Positions 2,618 through 39,616 of a stretch of DNA of 64,000 bases are shown here, in pieces (the stretch's first letter is position 1; each line of letters starts with the position of its first letter). Origin of the DNA: Clostridium sp. AT4 (lineage in GTDB: Bacteria > Bacillota > Clostridia > Lachnospirales > Lachnospiraceae); the NCBI RefSeq assembly GCF_001517625.2, contig NZ_LN999828.1, forward strand, positions 1,318,303-1,382,302, in the 5' to 3' direction. The position numbers were made by a program, and so were the translations under genes. The notes under the pieces are model-generated. The model was given only the letters and a program-made list of their open reading frames with translations, did no database searches and was not told the DNA's origin.

Positions 2618-5365
2618 CTATTTGGCATCAAACCAGGAGGCTCCTGTCTGGGCTTCCACCTCCAGAGCGACCTGTAAGCTGGCCGCATGCTTCATGCGGT
2701 CTGTCAGAAGATTTTTTACCTCTTCCTCTTCCTCTAACGGAGCTTCGATCAAAAGTTCATCGTGGATCTGCAGGACAATCCGGGAACGCAGCCCTCTTTT
2801 CCTTAACTCCCGATCCACATCGATCATGGCAATCTTCATAATATCCGCCGCGGAACCCTGGATGGGGGAATTCATAGCCACACGCTCTCCAAACTGACGC
2901 TGCATGAAATTGGATGACTTAAACTCAGGTATGGGCCTGCGCCGTCCGTAAAGGGTAGTCACATAGCCCTGCTCCTTTCCCTGCTTTACCAGACCGTCCA
3001 AAAAGGCCTTTACTCCGGGATAGGATTCAAAATATCGTTCAATATACTCCTTTGCTTCCTTTCGGGAGATGCTTAAGTCCTCGCTGAGTCCAAAGGCACT
3101 GATGCCGTAAACAATGCCGAAGTTGACCGCCTTGGCGTTGCGCCGCTGAAGAGGCGTCACCTTATCCAGAGGCACATGGAATACCTGGGAAGCCGTAGCT
3201 GCGTGGATATCCCTGGACTCTCTGTAAGCCTCGATCAGCCCTGCATCCCCGGACATATGGGCCAGGATACGAAGCTCGATCTGAGAATAATCCGCATCAA
3301 TAAAAATACAGCCTTCCTTTGGCACAAATACCCGGCGTATCTCCCGTCCGAGCTCCATACGGACGGGTATATTCTGAAGATTGGGTTCTGTACTGCTGAT
3401 GCGGCCTGTAGCTGTAATGGTCTGGTTAAATTTGCCGTGGATGCGCCCGTCCTCTCTGATAAATCCGGCCAGACCCTCCGCGTAGGTGGAATTTAACTTG
3501 GCAAGCTGGCGGTAATCCAGGATTTTCTGCACCACCGGATGGTCTGCCGCCAGCTTTTCCAGCACATCTGCCGCCGTAGAATAGCCCGTCTTTGTCTTTT
3601 TTCCACCCGGAAGCTTCATTTCACCAAAGAGAATCTCTCCCAGCTGCTTAGGGGAATTGATATTAAATTCTCTTCCCGTATCCTCATATATTTCTTTTTC
3701 CAGACGGGCAATCCCAACCTTTAGCTTGTCTCCGTATTCCTTTAATTTTTCTCGCTGAACCTGTATGCCTTCCTTCTCCATATGATACAGACTGTAAATC
3801 AGCGGCATTTCAATCTCTGTGTACAGTGTATACATTTCTTCATCCAAAAGGCGTTTTTTCAAAATCCCTGCGGATTTCCATACCGCATAGGCCATATAGC
3901 AGGCACAGTCCGCCGCCTTTTCCTCTTCCTGAACCAGCAGATCACCGATCTGGCCTTTTCCAAGAAGATCCGTCCGGGAAGGCAGGTCTTCTGAAAGGTA
4001 ATCCTTTGCAAGGGTATCATAATCGTAGGTATCTTTTAAGGGATTTAAAAGATAGCCCGCCACTCCCGCATCATAAACAGGTGCTGAATCTTCCAGTTCC
4101 AGCACAGGAAGCATAGCCTTTAAATCCAGAACCCACACCGGATGAGAACCGCCGCAGATTTTTTTTGCCTCCCGGATCAGATCCTTACTGCTTATCTCTT
4201 TCCCGGTACGGATACAGTAAATCTCCTTCTCTCCCAGACAAAGCCCCATACCTGCCGCTGCAAAAACCTCGCTTTCTTCTGTTTCATCCGGCTTAAGGCC
4301 GCCTGCATCATCGAAAGAAAAGGAAAGCTGTTCTTCTCCTGCACTGCCTTCTTCCTCAGGAAGCACTGTAGAGGCAAAAATCAGCTGCATTCCTGTTACA
4401 GCTGCATTCCGGGCCTTTTTTAAGACCGCCTCTGCCTCCTTCCTTCCGGTAATAACCTGAAACTGTTCTTTGATTTCCAGAGGATTTTCCCCTGCCGCAT
4501 TCGGAGAAAAACGGCTTAAAATGGACTTAAAGCCCATACGCTTCATAAACCGGAACGCCTGAGGGGTGTACAGATTCTCCACCTTTGCATCCTCATAAGA
4601 AAATTCCACCGGACAGTGGGTGCAGATAGTGGCAAGCTCCTTGCTCATCTGTGCTAAATCATAATGTTCTCCCAGGGCCTTCTGTGCTCTAGGCGGACGG
4701 ATCTCCTCCAGATGGGCATAGGCATTTTCAATGGAACCATAAGACACGATCAAACTGGTCGCCGTCTTTTCTCCAATGGAAGGAACTCCCGGTATATTAT
4801 CAGAGGAATCGCCCATAAGAGCCTTTACATCAATAAATTCTTCCGGGGAAACCTGATACTCCCGCTTTACATCTTCCGGATAATAATCATGGATCTCTGT
4901 CGTTCCCCGGCTGGTTTTGGGAATACGGATCTTAATATGGCTGTCTGCCAGCTGTAAGAGATCCCGGTCTCCCGAAACAACCGATACCTCAGCGCCCTTC
5001 TCCTGGCACCGCTTTGCCACGGTTCCCAGAATATCGTCGGCCTCATAGCCGGCCAGAGTCAGGATCGGGATTTCCATGGCAGTCAGGGCTTCTTTTATAA
5101 GAGGCACCTGCTCTCTTAACTCTTCGGGCATAGGCTTTCGGGTCCCCTTGTATGCATCAAACATTTTGTGGCGGAAAGTAGGCTCAGGCAGGTCAAAGGC
5201 CACTGCCAGATGATCCGCCTTCTCCTCCTCTAAAATCTTCAGCATAATATTTAAAAAGCCGTATACCGCATTGGTATGCAGCCCCTCTGCATTGGTCAGA
5301 TCCGGTACTCCGTAAAAGGCACGGTTTAATATACTGTGTCCGTCGATCAGTACAAGTTTGTCCAT
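2618..5365 (-). CDS. polA: DNA polymerase I
   Basis: A 915-residue family A polymerase for Okazaki-fragment maturation and repair synthesis. The N-terminal third is the 5'-3' flap nuclease (opening MDKLVLIDGHSILNRAFYG, with VSGDRDLLQL and a helix-hairpin-helix around GDSSDNIPGVPSIGEKTA). The C-terminal polymerase carries motif A DADYSQIELR, motif B RRNAKAVNFGIVYG and motif C QIHDELLIE. The central 3'-5' exonuclease domain appears inactive: the expected DxE motif reads AVTGMQL, and the second motif reads VLDLKAML without the catalytic N and D. AGGAGG lies twelve bases before the ATG. It heads polA-coaE-MBL after a small zinc-finger gene. Confidence 0.97.
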   Translation of the reverse strand: MDKLVLIDGHSILNRAFYGVPDLTNAEGLHTNAVYGFLNIMLKILEEEKADHLAVAFDLPEPTFRHKMFDAYKGTRKPMPEELREQVPLIKEALTAMEIPILTLAGYEADDILGTVAKRCQEKGAEVSVVSGDRDLLQLADSHIKIRIPKTSRGTTEIHDYYPEDVKREYQVSPEEFIDVKALMGDSSDNIPGVPSIGEKTATSLIVSYGSIENAYAHLEEIRPPRAQKALGEHYDLAQMSKELATICTHCPVEFSYEDAKVENLYTPQAFRFMKRMGFKSILSRFSPNAAGENPLEIKEQFQVITGRKEAEAVLKKARNAAVTGMQLIFASTVLPEEEGSAGEEQLSFSFDDAGGLKPDETEESEVFAAAGMGLCLGEKEIYCIRTGKEISSKDLIREAKKICGGSHPVWVLDLKAMLPVLELEDSAPVYDAGVAGYLLNPLKDTYDYDTLAKDYLSEDLPSRTDLLGKGQIGDLLVQEEEKAADCACYMAYAVWKSAGILKKRLLDEEMYTLYTEIEMPLIYSLYHMEKEGIQVQREKLKEYGDKLKVGIARLEKEIYEDTGREFNINSPKQLGEILFGEMKLPGGKKTKTGYSTAADVLEKLAADHPVVQKILDYRQLAKLNSTYAEGLAGFIREDGRIHGKFNQTITATGRISSTEPNLQNIPVRMELGREIRRVFVPKEGCIFIDADYSQIELRILAHMSGDAGLIEAYRESRDIHAATASQVFHVPLDKVTPLQRRNAKAVNFGIVYGISAFGLSEDLSISRKEAKEYIERYFESYPGVKAFLDGLVKQGKEQGYVTTLYGRRRPIPEFKSSNFMQRQFGERVAMNSPIQGSAADIMKIAMIDVDRELRKRGLRSRIVLQIHDELLIEAPLEEEEEVKNLLTDRMKHAASLQVALEVEAQTGASWFDAK

Positions 5366-36065: not shown

Positions 36066-36101
36066 TCAAAAAGAGGAGACGCGCCTTCTGAGCGTGTCTC
36101 C
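36066..36101 (-). terminator. Terminator of the zinc-ribbon gene cluster
   Basis: A 10-bp stem with one mismatch (36075-36084 with 36092-36101), seven-base loop, followed on the minus strand by TCTTTTTG. Confidence 0.8.
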
Positions 36102-36130
36102 CCTGAAAAACTTTATAAAATGGTACTCAT

Positions 36131-36307
36131 TTAATTCACCTTGGAGCCGCAGGCCGTGCAGAAAGCATCCCCCTCTGCCAGCGAAGCGCCGCAGGAAGGG
36201 CAGAACCGTCCGCCTGCGCTGGATATTTCCAGAGGCTCCAGCTTAGAGCCGCATTTATTGCAGAATACGCTGTCCAGCGTAATAATCTGCCGGCAGTGCT
36301 CGCACAT
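36131..36307 (-). CDS. Double zinc-ribbon C-terminal half, split from upstream ORF by TAG
   Basis: A 58-residue reading frame beginning MCEHCRQIITLDSVFCNKCG and ending FCTACGSKVN. It holds four CxxC pairs, giving two zinc ribbons. It is exactly in frame with the upstream helical ORF, separated only by TAG-Gly-Leu-Arg. The amber codon could come from CAG by one change, and a continuous protein (helical domain then zinc ribbons) is a familiar architecture, so this is probably the C-terminal half of one gene. An AGGGA six bases before its ATG could still allow separate translation. Confidence 0.65.
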   Translation of the reverse strand: MCEHCRQIITLDSVFCNKCGSKLEPLEISSAGGRFCPSCGASLAEGDAFCTACGSKVN

Positions 36308-36316
36308 GCGCAGTCC

Positions 36317-36568
36317 CTAAGCCGCCAGCTTGTTGCGCTCCAGCGTCTCCTTCTGCTCCTCCAGAGCCTTTATCTGGTTTATAAACTCCCTGTATTCCGG
36401 CTCACAGTCCTCCCTGTGCTTTTCCAGATACACGGTTCCGATCTGAATCAGCGCTTCCCTGATCTGCCCTTCCACCGCTTCAATCTGCTGGTCAAACTTT
36501 CCGGCCGACTGGCTGCTTTCCCCTCTGACCAAATTGGTATTTTCTTTAATCGTATCAAACAGTCCCAT
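36317..36568 (-). CDS. Helical N-terminal half of a zinc-ribbon protein, ends at TAG
   Basis: An 83-residue protein starting MGLFDTIKENTNLVRGESSQ, with AGGAGG nine bases before the ATG. The frame upstream to 36595 lacks a ribosome site. It is highly helical, with a predicted coiled coil (EAVEGQIREALIQIGTVYLE and INQIKALEEQKETLERNKLA). It stops at TAG (36317-36319) and the same frame then runs on through two zinc ribbons. Either the gene is interrupted by a nonsense change or the stop is read through at some rate. It follows the membrane zinc-ribbon gene by 13 bases. Confidence 0.7.
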   Translation of the reverse strand: MGLFDTIKENTNLVRGESSQSAGKFDQQIEAVEGQIREALIQIGTVYLEKHREDCEPEYREFINQIKALEEQKETLERNKLAA

Positions 36569-36581
36569 ATGCCCAATCCTC

Positions 36582-37445
36582 CTACTGTATTCCAAACCAG
36601 GCGTCTAAAAGCCCGCTGTCAACGCTGCTGATCTCCCAGCGCTTCTCCTCTTTATTATATGTAAATTCTACGGTTCCCGTATAGGTTTTGTCTGCCGTAC
36701 TGCTTTCTGCTTTTTCTTCAAATCCGTTCAGTATAAGAGAAGCGTCCCCAAACGCCATATCCGTCAGGTTCATCCACAGATTCTTCCTGTTTATTACCAG
36801 ATTCACAAGCTCGGACAGGCCTGTGTAGTCCTCTATTACCCGACGGTTTATATCGGGGATATCCAGATAATGCACTGTTACGGCTGCGCTGACGATCCCG
36901 TCCTTCTTTTTCGCTTTTTCCGCCTCAAAATAAGAACGACTGGTCACAGACTCTGCCAGCTGTTCCATATTAGCGGCTCTGGAAAAGGACTCTGAAAGAA
37001 CCTTTCCCAGTTTTGATGAAAGGTCACTTACCTCTTTATCTTCAAAATTTTCTCCCAGCTTTCCCAGAGAAAGCTTTATATTCTGAAAAAACTGTTCGGT
37101 CAGATCATTTACCATATAGTCAAAGCAGGAATGGTACAGATTTTCATTTTCCGAATATTCGCTATGCTCCGCAAAATATTCCTCCATCATAGCCTGTGTA
37201 TCAATCTTTCCCGCACTGGGCTTTAATAAAAGAACGGCAAAAACAAGCACAAGAACCGCTCCCAGAAGCCTTGCAGCCTTTATGGAAATCTGCGGGCGCT
37301 TCCATGTGAAGGATACGCCTTTTTTCTCTGCCTTTTTTGTACTTCCTGTGTTTACACGCATCTTTTCACCGCATTTGGGGCAAAACTGCGCGCCATTCTT
37401 AACGTCATTTCCACACTTTTCCCTCCTGATAAAAGGTCTTTGCAA
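36582..37445 (-). CDS. Zinc-ribbon membrane protein with damaged 5' end
   Basis: An open frame of 287 residues from a TTG at 37445. The recognisable part starts EKCGNDVKNGAQFCPKCGEK, where a zinc ribbon normally begins M-x-C-E-K-C-G; here the first cysteine is replaced by Arg and no ATG exists in the right place. The AGGAGG that should precede the start is itself read as Arg-Arg, directly before GAA AAG TGT, which suggests loss of a short segment holding the start codon and first Cys. The next in-frame ATG is 37361, after the ribbon. One membrane helix (AARLLGAVLVLVFAVLLL) then an extracytoplasmic domain follow. Confidence 0.6.
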   Translation of the reverse strand: MQRPFIRREKCGNDVKNGAQFCPKCGEKMRVNTGSTKKAEKKGVSFTWKRPQISIKAARLLGAVLVLVFAVLLLKPSAGKIDTQAMMEEYFAEHSEYSENENLYHSCFDYMVNDLTEQFFQNIKLSLGKLGENFEDKEVSDLSSKLGKVLSESFSRAANMEQLAESVTSRSYFEAEKAKKKDGIVSAAVTVHYLDIPDINRRVIEDYTGLSELVNLVINRKNLWMNLTDMAFGDASLILNGFEEKAESSTADKTYTGTVEFTYNKEEKRWEISSVDSGLLDAWFGIQ

Positions 37446-37529
37446 ATAAATGTCTCAGATTGTGAGGGAATACCTTTTTCGGATCAACGCCTGCCTTTCT
37501 TTTTTACAACCATTATATTGCTCTTTTCC

Positions 37530-37774
37530 TTGAGTTTCCGCATTTTACAGTGTGATCTGGGGGTCTGGTGTGCAGGGCGACTTTGAAGGTCATTAGAAAA
37601 CCTTAGAGGATTAAATTTTTTGTTAAAAGCCATATCAAACCTGTTTGAGCGCAGCGAGTTTTTGATATGGCTTTTGTTTTTAGAAAAAGTTCAGACTCTT
37701 AGGCTTTCTTATGACCGGAAACCGGAGCCCTGCACACCAGACTCCAGAGGGCGGTGCAAAACGCGGAAACTCAA
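37530..37774. repeat. 245-bp imperfect palindrome, MITE-like
   Basis: The two ends are perfect inverted repeats (TTGAGTTTCCGC at 37530-37541, GCGGAAACTCAA at 37763-37774). A perfect 16-bp pair (37563-37578 with 37727-37742) and a 20-base pair with three mismatches (about 37588-37607 with 37697-37716) follow inward, and the centre is a perfect 15-bp stem (37625-37639 with 37661-37675) with a 21-base loop containing GAGCGCAGCGAG. No protein is supported inside it. It fills most of the 425-base gap between the damaged zinc-ribbon gene and rqcH. No clear target-site duplication was seen. The remaining gap sequence (37446-37529 and 37775-37870) shows only a TATAAT at 37512-37517 on the minus strand. 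Confidence 0.85.
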
Positions 37775-37870
37775 ACCTTTTCTGCTTTTCTATTTCCCCA
37801 AATTATGCTATTCTAATAAGCAAGGCCCCGTTTCAGGCAAACAAATATGGGCTCGACAGGAGTGTATCAA

Positions 37871-39616
37871 ATGGCATTTGATGGTATTACCATTGCAAAT
37901 CTGGCTTATGAGTTCAAAAGCACCTTAGAGGGCGGAAAGATCGCAAAAATCGCCCAGCCGGAAAAGGACGAGCTTCTCATTGCCGTTAAAAATAACCGTG
38001 AAACCTACCGGCTGCAGATTTCCGCCAGCGCCAGCCTTCCCCTTATCTATCTCACGGAAAATAATAAACCCAGCCCTCTGACCGCCCCCAATTTCTGTAT
38101 GCTTTTAAGAAAGCATATCGGAAGCGCCAGGATCCTTTCCATCACCCAGCCGGGGCTGGAGCGTATCCTGGAATTTGAGCTGGAGCATCTGGACGAAATG
38201 GGCGACTTGTGCAGAAAAAAGCTGATCGTAGAGATCATGGGAAAGCACAGCAATATCATTTTCTGTAAGGAAGACGGCACGATCATTGACAGCATCAAGC
38301 ATGTGTCCGCCAATATGAGTTCTGTAAGGGAGGTTCTGCCCGGAAGGGAATACTTTATCCCTCAAACAGTAGCAAAAGAGAATCCTCTGACCGTCACGGA
38401 AGCGGATTTCTGCCGGATCATAAAAGCCGCGCCCATGACGGTTCAGAAGGCCCTGTACAATCATTTCACAGGCATCAGCCCCATTGTGGCAGAGGAGGTC
38501 TGTCATCTGGCTTCCATCGATTCCGACCTGTCTGCCAACGGGCTGTCTGAGGCAGAACTGACCCATCTGGCCCATACCTTCTGCCTGCTGATGGAGGATG
38601 TAAAGGAAGGACGCTTCTCTCCTGCTATTATCTATGATGAGGAAGGCCCTCTGGAATACGCTTCCATTCCCCTGACCTGTCTGGAAGGAAGGGGCTGCCG
38701 CAGAGAGGGCTGGTCTTCCATCAGCGCTCTTCTGGAAAATTACTATGCCTCCAGAGACAGCCGCACAAGGATCCGCCAGAAATCCGCCGACCTGCGCCGG
38801 ATCGTCCAGACCGCCCTGGAGCGCAATTATAAAAAATACGATCTGCAGTTAAAGCAGCTAAAGGATACGGAAAAGCGGGAAAAGTACCGGATCTACGGAG
38901 AACTGTTAAATACCTACGGCTACGAGCTGGCAGGCGGTGAGAAATCCTTTTCCTGCATCAACTATTACACAGGGGAAGAAATCTCTATCCCCCTGGATCC
39001 TCAGCTTTCTGCAAAGGACAATGCAAAGAAGCATTTTGACAAGTATAATAAATTAAAGAGGACCTTTGAGGCCTTAACCCAGCTGACCGACCAGACAAAG
39101 GCGGAAATCGACCATCTGGAATCCATCAGCTCTGCCCTGGATATCGCTCTGGCTGAAAATGATCTGGTGCAGATCAAGGAGGAACTGATGGAATACGGCT
39201 ATGTGAAAAAGCGCCGTCCAAACGATAAGCGGCCAAAGATCACCAGCAAGCCCTTCCATTATATTTCCTCTGACGGATACCACATCTATGTGGGCAAAAA
39301 CAACTATCAGAATGAGGAGCTGACCTTCCGGTTTGCAAATGGAAATGACTGGTGGTTCCACGCCAAGGGCATACCCGGCTCCCATGTGATTTTAAAAAAT
39401 GACGGGAAAGGCGAGCTGCCGGACCGGGCCTTTGAGGAGGCGGGCGCACTGGCTGCCTACTATTCCAAGGGCCGTGAAAATGAGAAGGTGGAAATCGACT
39501 ATATCCAGAAGAAAAATATCAAAAAGGTTACAGGAGCCGCACCGGGCTTTGTGATCTACCACACCAATTATTCTTTGGTTGCGATTCCCTCCTGCAATTT
39601 GAAAGAAGCAGAATAG
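37871..39616 (+). CDS. rqcH: NFACT family protein, ribosome quality control factor RqcH
   Basis: A 581-residue protein opening MAFDGITIANLAYEFKSTLE, the NFACT N-terminal domain (old name fibronectin-binding A). Long helices follow in the middle (coiled coil around residues 290-330 and 390-420), and the C-terminal NFACT-R domain has YHIYVGKNNYQNEELTFRFA and NDWWFHAKGIPGSHVIL. RqcH binds stalled 50S-peptidyl-tRNA and adds alanine tails. I chose the ATG at 37871 because AGGAG lies eight bases upstream; the frame to 37847 has no site. Followed by a strong terminator. Confidence 0.93.
   Translation: MAFDGITIANLAYEFKSTLEGGKIAKIAQPEKDELLIAVKNNRETYRLQISASASLPLIYLTENNKPSPLTAPNFCMLLRKHIGSARILSITQPGLERILEFELEHLDEMGDLCRKKLIVEIMGKHSNIIFCKEDGTIIDSIKHVSANMSSVREVLPGREYFIPQTVAKENPLTVTEADFCRIIKAAPMTVQKALYNHFTGISPIVAEEVCHLASIDSDLSANGLSEAELTHLAHTFCLLMEDVKEGRFSPAIIYDEEGPLEYASIPLTCLEGRGCRREGWSSISALLENYYASRDSRTRIRQKSADLRRIVQTALERNYKKYDLQLKQLKDTEKREKYRIYGELLNTYGYELAGGEKSFSCINYYTGEEISIPLDPQLSAKDNAKKHFDKYNKLKRTFEALTQLTDQTKAEIDHLESISSALDIALAENDLVQIKEELMEYGYVKKRRPNDKRPKITSKPFHYISSDGYHIYVGKNNYQNEELTFRFANGNDWWFHAKGIPGSHVILKNDGKGELPDRAFEEAGALAAYYSKGRENEKVEIDYIQKKNIKKVTGAAPGFVIYHTNYSLVAIPSCNLKEAE

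Follow-up and report, generated by a model that had tools for sequence, protein, structure and literature searches.

A probable MITE-like palindrome beside the NFACT gene of Clostridium sp. AT4 and the dispersed hairpin family that shares its core

The window analyzed here is a stretch of 64,000 nucleotides from Clostridium sp. AT4, in which a near-perfect palindrome sits between a zinc-ribbon gene (36582-37445, minus strand) and the NFACT gene (37847-39616, plus strand). The nested inverted pairs about one centre that had been described in the first-pass annotation are all present, including the 12-bp ends and the 15-bp central stem, as listed in Table 1. The perfect 16-bp pair (37563-37578/37727-37742) was located by the repeat search within a 19-nt pair of 95% identity. 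The longer imperfect pair, of 21 nt and with three mismatched positions (37588-37608/37696-37716), was read from the sequence and is not listed by the repeat search. The fold energy of the 265-nt strand 37520-37784 is -121.9 kcal/mol, compared with -69.9 +/- 4.8 kcal/mol for 200 dinucleotide shuffles (z = -10.75), none of which folded as well (0/200). The palindrome had been considered free of any supported reading frame, which agrees with the present result, the sole listed ORF of at least 60 aa across it being a TTG-started frame of 102 aa that runs into the next gene. Regarding the zinc-ribbon gene, previously described as damaged, the Pfam match spans profile positions 4-22 of 23 and scores 24.5 bits against a cut-off of 25 bits, which fits damage and does not prove it. 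The disruption of a -35 box next to a TATAAT, proposed on the same occasion, was not borne out by the promoter scan (0 sigma-70-like sites against 0.7 expected), so that any influence of the palindrome on the zinc-ribbon gene is conjectural.

Table 1. Features of the palindrome, in window coordinates
Feature	Position	Strand	Remarks
Whole palindromic element, probably mobile	37530..37774	+ (tip strand)	245 bp
Left terminal inverted repeat TTGAGTTTCCGC	37530..37541	+	perfect 12 bp, shared by copies
Right terminal inverted repeat GCGGAAACTCAA	37763..37774	+	perfect 12 bp, shared by copies
Possible left target duplication TCTTTTCC	37522..37529	.	6/8, weak
Possible right target duplication CCTTTTCT	37776..37783	.	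6/8, weak
Left outer arm	37542..37585	+	pairs with right outer arm
Right outer arm	37720..37762	+	pairs with left outer arm
Conserved core	37586..37719	+	model R1 match 143.5 bits; window copy itself part of the model
Apical tip TGTTTGAGCGCAGCGAGTTT	37642..37661	+	contains GCGNAGC
Inner stem, left side	37625..37639	+	perfect 15 bp; partner 37661-37675
Inner stem, right side	37661..37675	+	partner 37625-37639

The surroundings of the palindrome differ among relatives. In G006, the alignments of YicC and NFACT lie 33 bp apart, where the window has approximately 1.7 kb extra (~36071-37784), comprising a 92-aa frame, the zinc-ribbon gene and the palindrome, with a right edge 10 bp past the palindrome end. 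Neither the 92-aa frame nor the zinc-ribbon gene is encoded in the stretch around NFACT in any of the 14 NFACT-bearing relatives. The window's own element is likewise absent from the site in all 14, and the query matched nothing in two more genomes of the genus. With R1, a covariance model of the core, 13 of the 14 relatives gave no hit at the window site. The remaining one, G008, carries another family member in this gap, whose arms differ and whose tip has diverged (65 bits, E 1.1e-14), and short pieces resembling one GTTACAGTTCA-type end can be observed by eye at the site in G005, G012, and G015. Together, the G008 member and these end pieces suggest repeated arrival and loss of elements in the gap next to NFACT. 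The palindrome in the window may have arrived with the 1.7-kb accessory block missing from the 14 relatives, or may mark its edge. Since the nearest relative misses this entire block, a base-exact empty site for the window copy is not available.

Repetition of the palindrome in its own genome was confirmed by BLAST, with 11 places matching the core in addition to partial ones. Six of these, L001-L005 and L007, have common ends and align over their whole length as complete or nearly complete copies. L006 and L008-L011 contain the same core between different outer arms, which again pair mutually and by eye appear hypervariable, with no target duplication visible by eye; L012, L013, and L020 appear to be internal deletions. 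Across the family Lachnospiraceae, R1 matched in 46 of 397 genomes and 41 of 334 genera, a patchy spread for which no more than 8 candidates were scored in each genome. The ends were also followed in G086 and G416, two genomes from another genus of the family, in which elements terminate in sequences like GTTACAGTTCA..TGAACTGTAAC. Among the 22 elements delimited there by script, in which the wrongly delimited L263 and L266(-) were kept, 13 are flanked by a perfect 8-bp target duplication and 16 by a duplication of at least 7/8, compared with 0/462 and 1/462, respectively, for crossed flanks. A perfect 8-bp pair can be seen by eye at L266(-). Sixteen of the 22 measure 287-290 bp and three are deletion forms, the latter with flanking duplications of their own (L286, 238 bp, 8/8; L287, 91 bp, 8/8; L291, 48 bp, 7/8). 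In the own genome, where the ends are TTGAG..CTCAA, the duplication is perfect in three of eight elements and at least 7/8 in four, compared with 0/56 and 3/56 crossed pairs; there, the repeat lies 0-3 bases off the element end, whose precise position is accordingly uncertain. The duplication of the window copy reaches only 6/8, and three of the seven other own-genome elements score 5 or less.

The family is a dispersed one, with short terminal inverted repeats, 8-bp duplications at some of the own-genome copies and at most of those delimited in G086 and G416, and a patchy distribution. A MITE is a miniature inverted-repeat transposable element. The window palindrome shares with MITEs its terminal inverted repeats, target duplications (weak at this copy), an intergenic position, a short length of 245 bp that holds no gene, for a transposase or otherwise, and multiple dispersed copies. 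We consequently regard it as a MITE-like, non-autonomous DNA element with a probability of roughly 0.85, in agreement with the first-pass reading of a MITE or other non-autonomous palindrome, which the many copies, common ends, 8-bp duplications and absence from the site in 14 relatives all favour. Movement would probably be brought about by a DDE-type transposase, supplied in trans and cutting at the terminal repeats. The element differs from MITEs in being palindromic almost throughout, in arms that diverge between copies yet match each other, and in a conserved structured core. Long self-folding inverted repeats are also a property of Foldback elements, from which the present family is distinguished by its bacterial hosts, its size of ~48-305 bp, and the conservation of its apex and mismatches.

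In G086 and G416, the left arms of different copies have a median identity of 0.710 (range 0.61-0.97), equivalent to the 0.714 of shuffled arms, a base line that is high because end gaps are free, whereas cores are 0.927 identical between copies and the two arms within one copy have a median identity of 0.957. All 19 tip-bearing elements found were included in this comparison; L286, L287, and L291, having no full core, were left out. Some copies share arms that are up to 0.97 identical, and the six full own-genome copies are also alike in their arms, indicating that the drift lies between subfamilies. Such a pattern could also arise if the core were a separate element inserting into the tips of older palindromes such as terminators or MITEs, which would explain why own-genome copies share a core between several unrelated arm sequences and why some palindromes have the same ends but lack a core (L020, L287, and L291). 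We consider this improbable, since the divergent arms of G086 and G416 retain similar ends and length, which looks like change in place, and the coreless forms resemble internal deletions. Moreover, the window hairpin minus its core was seen in no relative at the window site: the lowest fold energy per base in the gap was -0.04 to -0.29 in 11 of the 14 relatives, -0.34 in G016 and -0.41 in G013, both with 1.2-kb gaps, and -0.56 in G008, which has its own member.

The core shows strong covariation. In an alignment of 19 cores, 11 from the own genome and eight from relatives, 94.9% of 949 cells are paired, and both sides have changed in 29 of 50 pairs, corresponding to 158 cells against 50.2 in shuffles (0/500), counts that are inflated by relatedness. 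When the partner was slid by 1-3 columns, pairing fell to 36-52%, a control that is somewhat flattering because the structure was taken from the same alignment. Double changes occur in 20 of 96 pairs among the six full own-genome copies. At the same time, the core retains its unpaired bases: the T-T mismatches of TTAG/CTTA, the asymmetric GTT..TTAG bulge and the tip are kept, with little or no variation at the sites that are mismatched or left unpaired (TTAG, CTTA, GTT, most of the tip). A protein on which spread or survival depends may recognize the core in its folded DNA form.

Compensatory changes of this kind had been named in the first-pass annotation as a sign of an RNA gene. They are present, yet they occur in a family that is dispersed and mobile, with mismatches of a DNA-like kind. 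A structured RNA (leader, small RNA, or source of double-stranded RNA) spread by duplication, with covariation reflecting RNA folding, would account for the covariation, the conserved unpaired bases and the very stable fold. The types of mismatch bear on this directly, as selection at the RNA level should tolerate G-U and not A-C. Among hairpins with at least 60 flanking bases and a stem scoring 8 or more, the ratio of G-T to A-C is 23:11 in the own genome, which favours an RNA, and is nearly even in the larger sets, at 23:20 in other Lachnospiraceae and 122:105 in other phyla. A separate count in the outer arms of G086 and G416 gave 17:15. The near-equal frequency makes upkeep of the arms at the DNA level the likeliest interpretation, against which the 2:1 ratio of the own-genome set counts. 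Furthermore, the tip strand has no bias towards the local coding strand (18 the same, 14 opposite, 20 ambiguous), neither a promoter nor a terminator-like site accompanies the window copy, the element is not conserved at the window site, and the 8-bp duplications are precise. No Rfam family reached its gathering score on the elements, the only hits being to miRNA families below that score. For these reasons a structured RNA is distinctly improbable. Nor was a published description of the family found in Rfam or the open-licence literature, an absence that is weak evidence. Among the papers listed, those matched by sequence motif look unrelated, and those matched by topic deal with REPINs, REPs and MITEs.

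In the MITE-like element preferred here, the matching of the arms may result from repair templated by the hairpin, from template switching, or from selection acting on a DNA hairpin. Template switching corrects quasipalindromes. In bacteria, instability is expected of palindromes that are long and almost perfect. Palindromes that stay matched as the arms of subfamilies drift beyond recognition represent a natural test bed for hairpin-templated repair.

The loop motif that the first-pass annotation recollected from dispersed clostridial palindromes is real and extends much further than Clostridia. The exact tip occurs in 7 of 100 genomes of the family, the own one included, and a scan of genome contigs with TGTTTGAGCGCAGCGAGTTT returned at least 116 stretches; the record titles among the matches listed name Proteobacteria, Bacteroidota, Nitrospirota, Desulfobacterota-type MAGs, Bacillota, Calditrichota, and others. 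In most, the tip caps a stem of variable sequence, frequently with a CCGTTAA-like bulge on the left and TTAG on the right. The stem criterion was satisfied at 100 loci for the real motif and by 4 hits for a scrambled one, a control that demonstrates only that the criterion is non-trivial, as the 100 loci were chosen for the tip. R1, given 100 of the at least 116 tip loci, scored up to 63 bits over its full length and typically ~27 bits on the tip only (38-40 positions), with one such match at 33.5, values that are partly circular in a tip-selected set. The tip is rare outside chromosomes, being present in 6 of 72,556 plasmid records (two with 18 bases only) and in six stretches of viral contigs. 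None was detected in E. coli genomes at the sensitivity used. By its sequence GAGCGNAGCGAG, the tip holds GCGNAGC, in which N is seen as A, C, G, and T. According to PMC4686876, a DNA mini-hairpin that combines a GNA loop with two or more G-C pairs is extraordinarily stable, with a Tm of 78 C for GCGAAGC; the tip matches that motif, its N varying as the motif allows, and differs in setting from the short synthetic fragment described there. A standard energy model gives the tip no stability bonus and almost equal values for the two strands (-12.2 and -12.0 kcal/mol), so that a role of the tip through GNA-hairpin stability is conjectural.

Individual tip loci display several other arrangements. 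On one contig of Bacteroides luti (G143:C22; L197-L199), 17 exact tips with mostly alternating strands surround defence-type genes identified by Pfam (AAA_14/DUF4143, DUF234 ATPase, Abi_2, AbiJ_NTD4, and DUF7017), together with an AbiEii-like pair recognized by eye. Genes of other kinds also occur between tips, such as one that by eye is glycoside hydrolase-like. This looks like an array of hairpin-flanked cassettes. Outward-facing tip pairs ~145-310 bp apart occur in several phyla (L054, L089, L098, L099, L104, L110, L124, L137, L152, and L162), inward-facing pairs at L067 and L086. At L206, L208, L211, and L333-L352, another hairpin, rich in T (GGTTACTTTT..AAAAGTAAC or similar), can be seen by eye after the first, in hosts from Bacteroidota, Fusobacteriota, and Betaproteobacteria. 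A different hairpin with the same tip and many mismatches, G-A among them by eye, is found at L040 and L047 (G063). In two plasmid class 1 integrons (L209 and L210, ~2950-3070), an attC-like hairpin located between dfrA1 and qacK has 18 tip bases as its apex. The likeness to integron attC ends at this apex, since neither an integrase nor a cassette array lies beside the window element, whose neighbours are the zinc-ribbon gene and NFACT.

An apex common to many phyla suggests a common, unnamed recognition machinery. Tentatively, and with appreciable doubt, a bacteria-wide family of DNA hairpins can be envisaged, whose members have in common one recognized apex (TGTTTGAGCGNAGCGAGTTT, which as a single strand would form an ultra-stable GNA mini-hairpin) together with a GTTA..TTAG bulge module. 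Folded DNA, rather than RNA, would be the recognized form, the arms would evolve in concert by hairpin-templated copying, trans-acting machinery would move the hairpins, and the Bacteroides luti pairs would flank defence-type genes in the manner of cassette ends. A link to a defence-gene array, seen in one Bacteroides, could be of practical importance.

A REPIN-like mode of movement, in which a Y1 (RAYT-type) transposase acts on the element in folded single-stranded form, would fit the hairpins, the conserved apex and the outward-facing pairs at 10 loci in other phyla, and Y1 matches exist in 17 of 22 tip-bearing genomes. REPINs, according to PMC3116915, are likewise extragenic hairpin units, and those of the present family are paired and inverted in other phyla. 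This reading is very unlikely, and Y1/RAYT was rejected as the mover: the own genome, in an assembly 97% complete, has 0 matches to Y1_Tnp, the tip lies near none of 30 Y1 loci from tip-bearing genomes (within ~1.5 kb, two mismatches allowed), and the 8-bp duplications are clean. An ordinary bidirectional terminator or attenuator, to which an intergenic hairpin might be attributed, has next to no probability and is contradicted for the window copy, which has no T-run terminator and, as the first-pass annotation had argued, lies between divergent genes. Among the 11 own-genome places three are divergent, seven co-directional, one undefined and none convergent by calls made from longest open frames rather than annotated genes, with the window copy set to divergent by hand.

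For the non-autonomous DNA element favoured here, an autonomous parent would be expected to end in GTTACWGTTCA or TTGAGTTTCC and to produce 8-bp duplications. With the GTTACTGTTCA ends from G416 as query, no transposase with matching ends was identified in the family genomes, plasmids, phages, or viral contigs, and BLAST with the whole element gave no match in plasmids and phages. Longer repeats ending in GTTACTGTTCA are present in G416, broken at contig ends; such ends, from G416 and G191 (L289, L290, L298, and L304), may belong to a parent IS. At L283 in G416, GTTACTGTTCA and TGAACTGTAAC ends lie 2.5 kb apart around chromosomal-looking frames, UbiD/UbiX-like by eye, with no duplication by eye. 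The IS6 group makes 8-bp duplications according to PMC6807381, for which reason an IS6-like origin was considered; the element ends are unlike the GG-starting consensus of short IS6 members given there. In longer clostridial members the same source describes a GG start as rare and mostly a G at position 7; the G at position 7 of GTTACTG matches these, which permits a guess at an IS6-like origin and constitutes no test of it. The DUF4143 ATPase, considered as a mover, has one copy in the own genome. No shared neighbour gene was apparent among the tip loci beyond frames through the element itself and broad clusters, a few of which were named by Pfam as ABC ATPases, AMP-binding, and aminotransferase.

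Finally, the orientation of the tip was compared with GC skew. The tip strand lies on negative skew in 16 of 18 elements from G000 and G086 (20-kb windows, p 0.0013), a set without L277 of G086, where the tip was not recognized. The bias is weaker in a further set of 52 elements, most of them with a context of 1.4-3 kb, where negative skew was found for 32 (p 0.13), and for 23 of 29 where |skew| was at least 0.1 (p 0.002), a threshold chosen after seeing the data. No strand bias is present in other phyla, where the C-rich strand accounts for 56 of 119 in a set that includes a few Lachnospiraceae loci. These results suggest a replication-linked effect on the hairpin DNA, confined to the Lachnospiraceae family, which would make it a natural test bed for replication-strand effects too. 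By eye, G086 begins with dnaA/dnaN-like frames.
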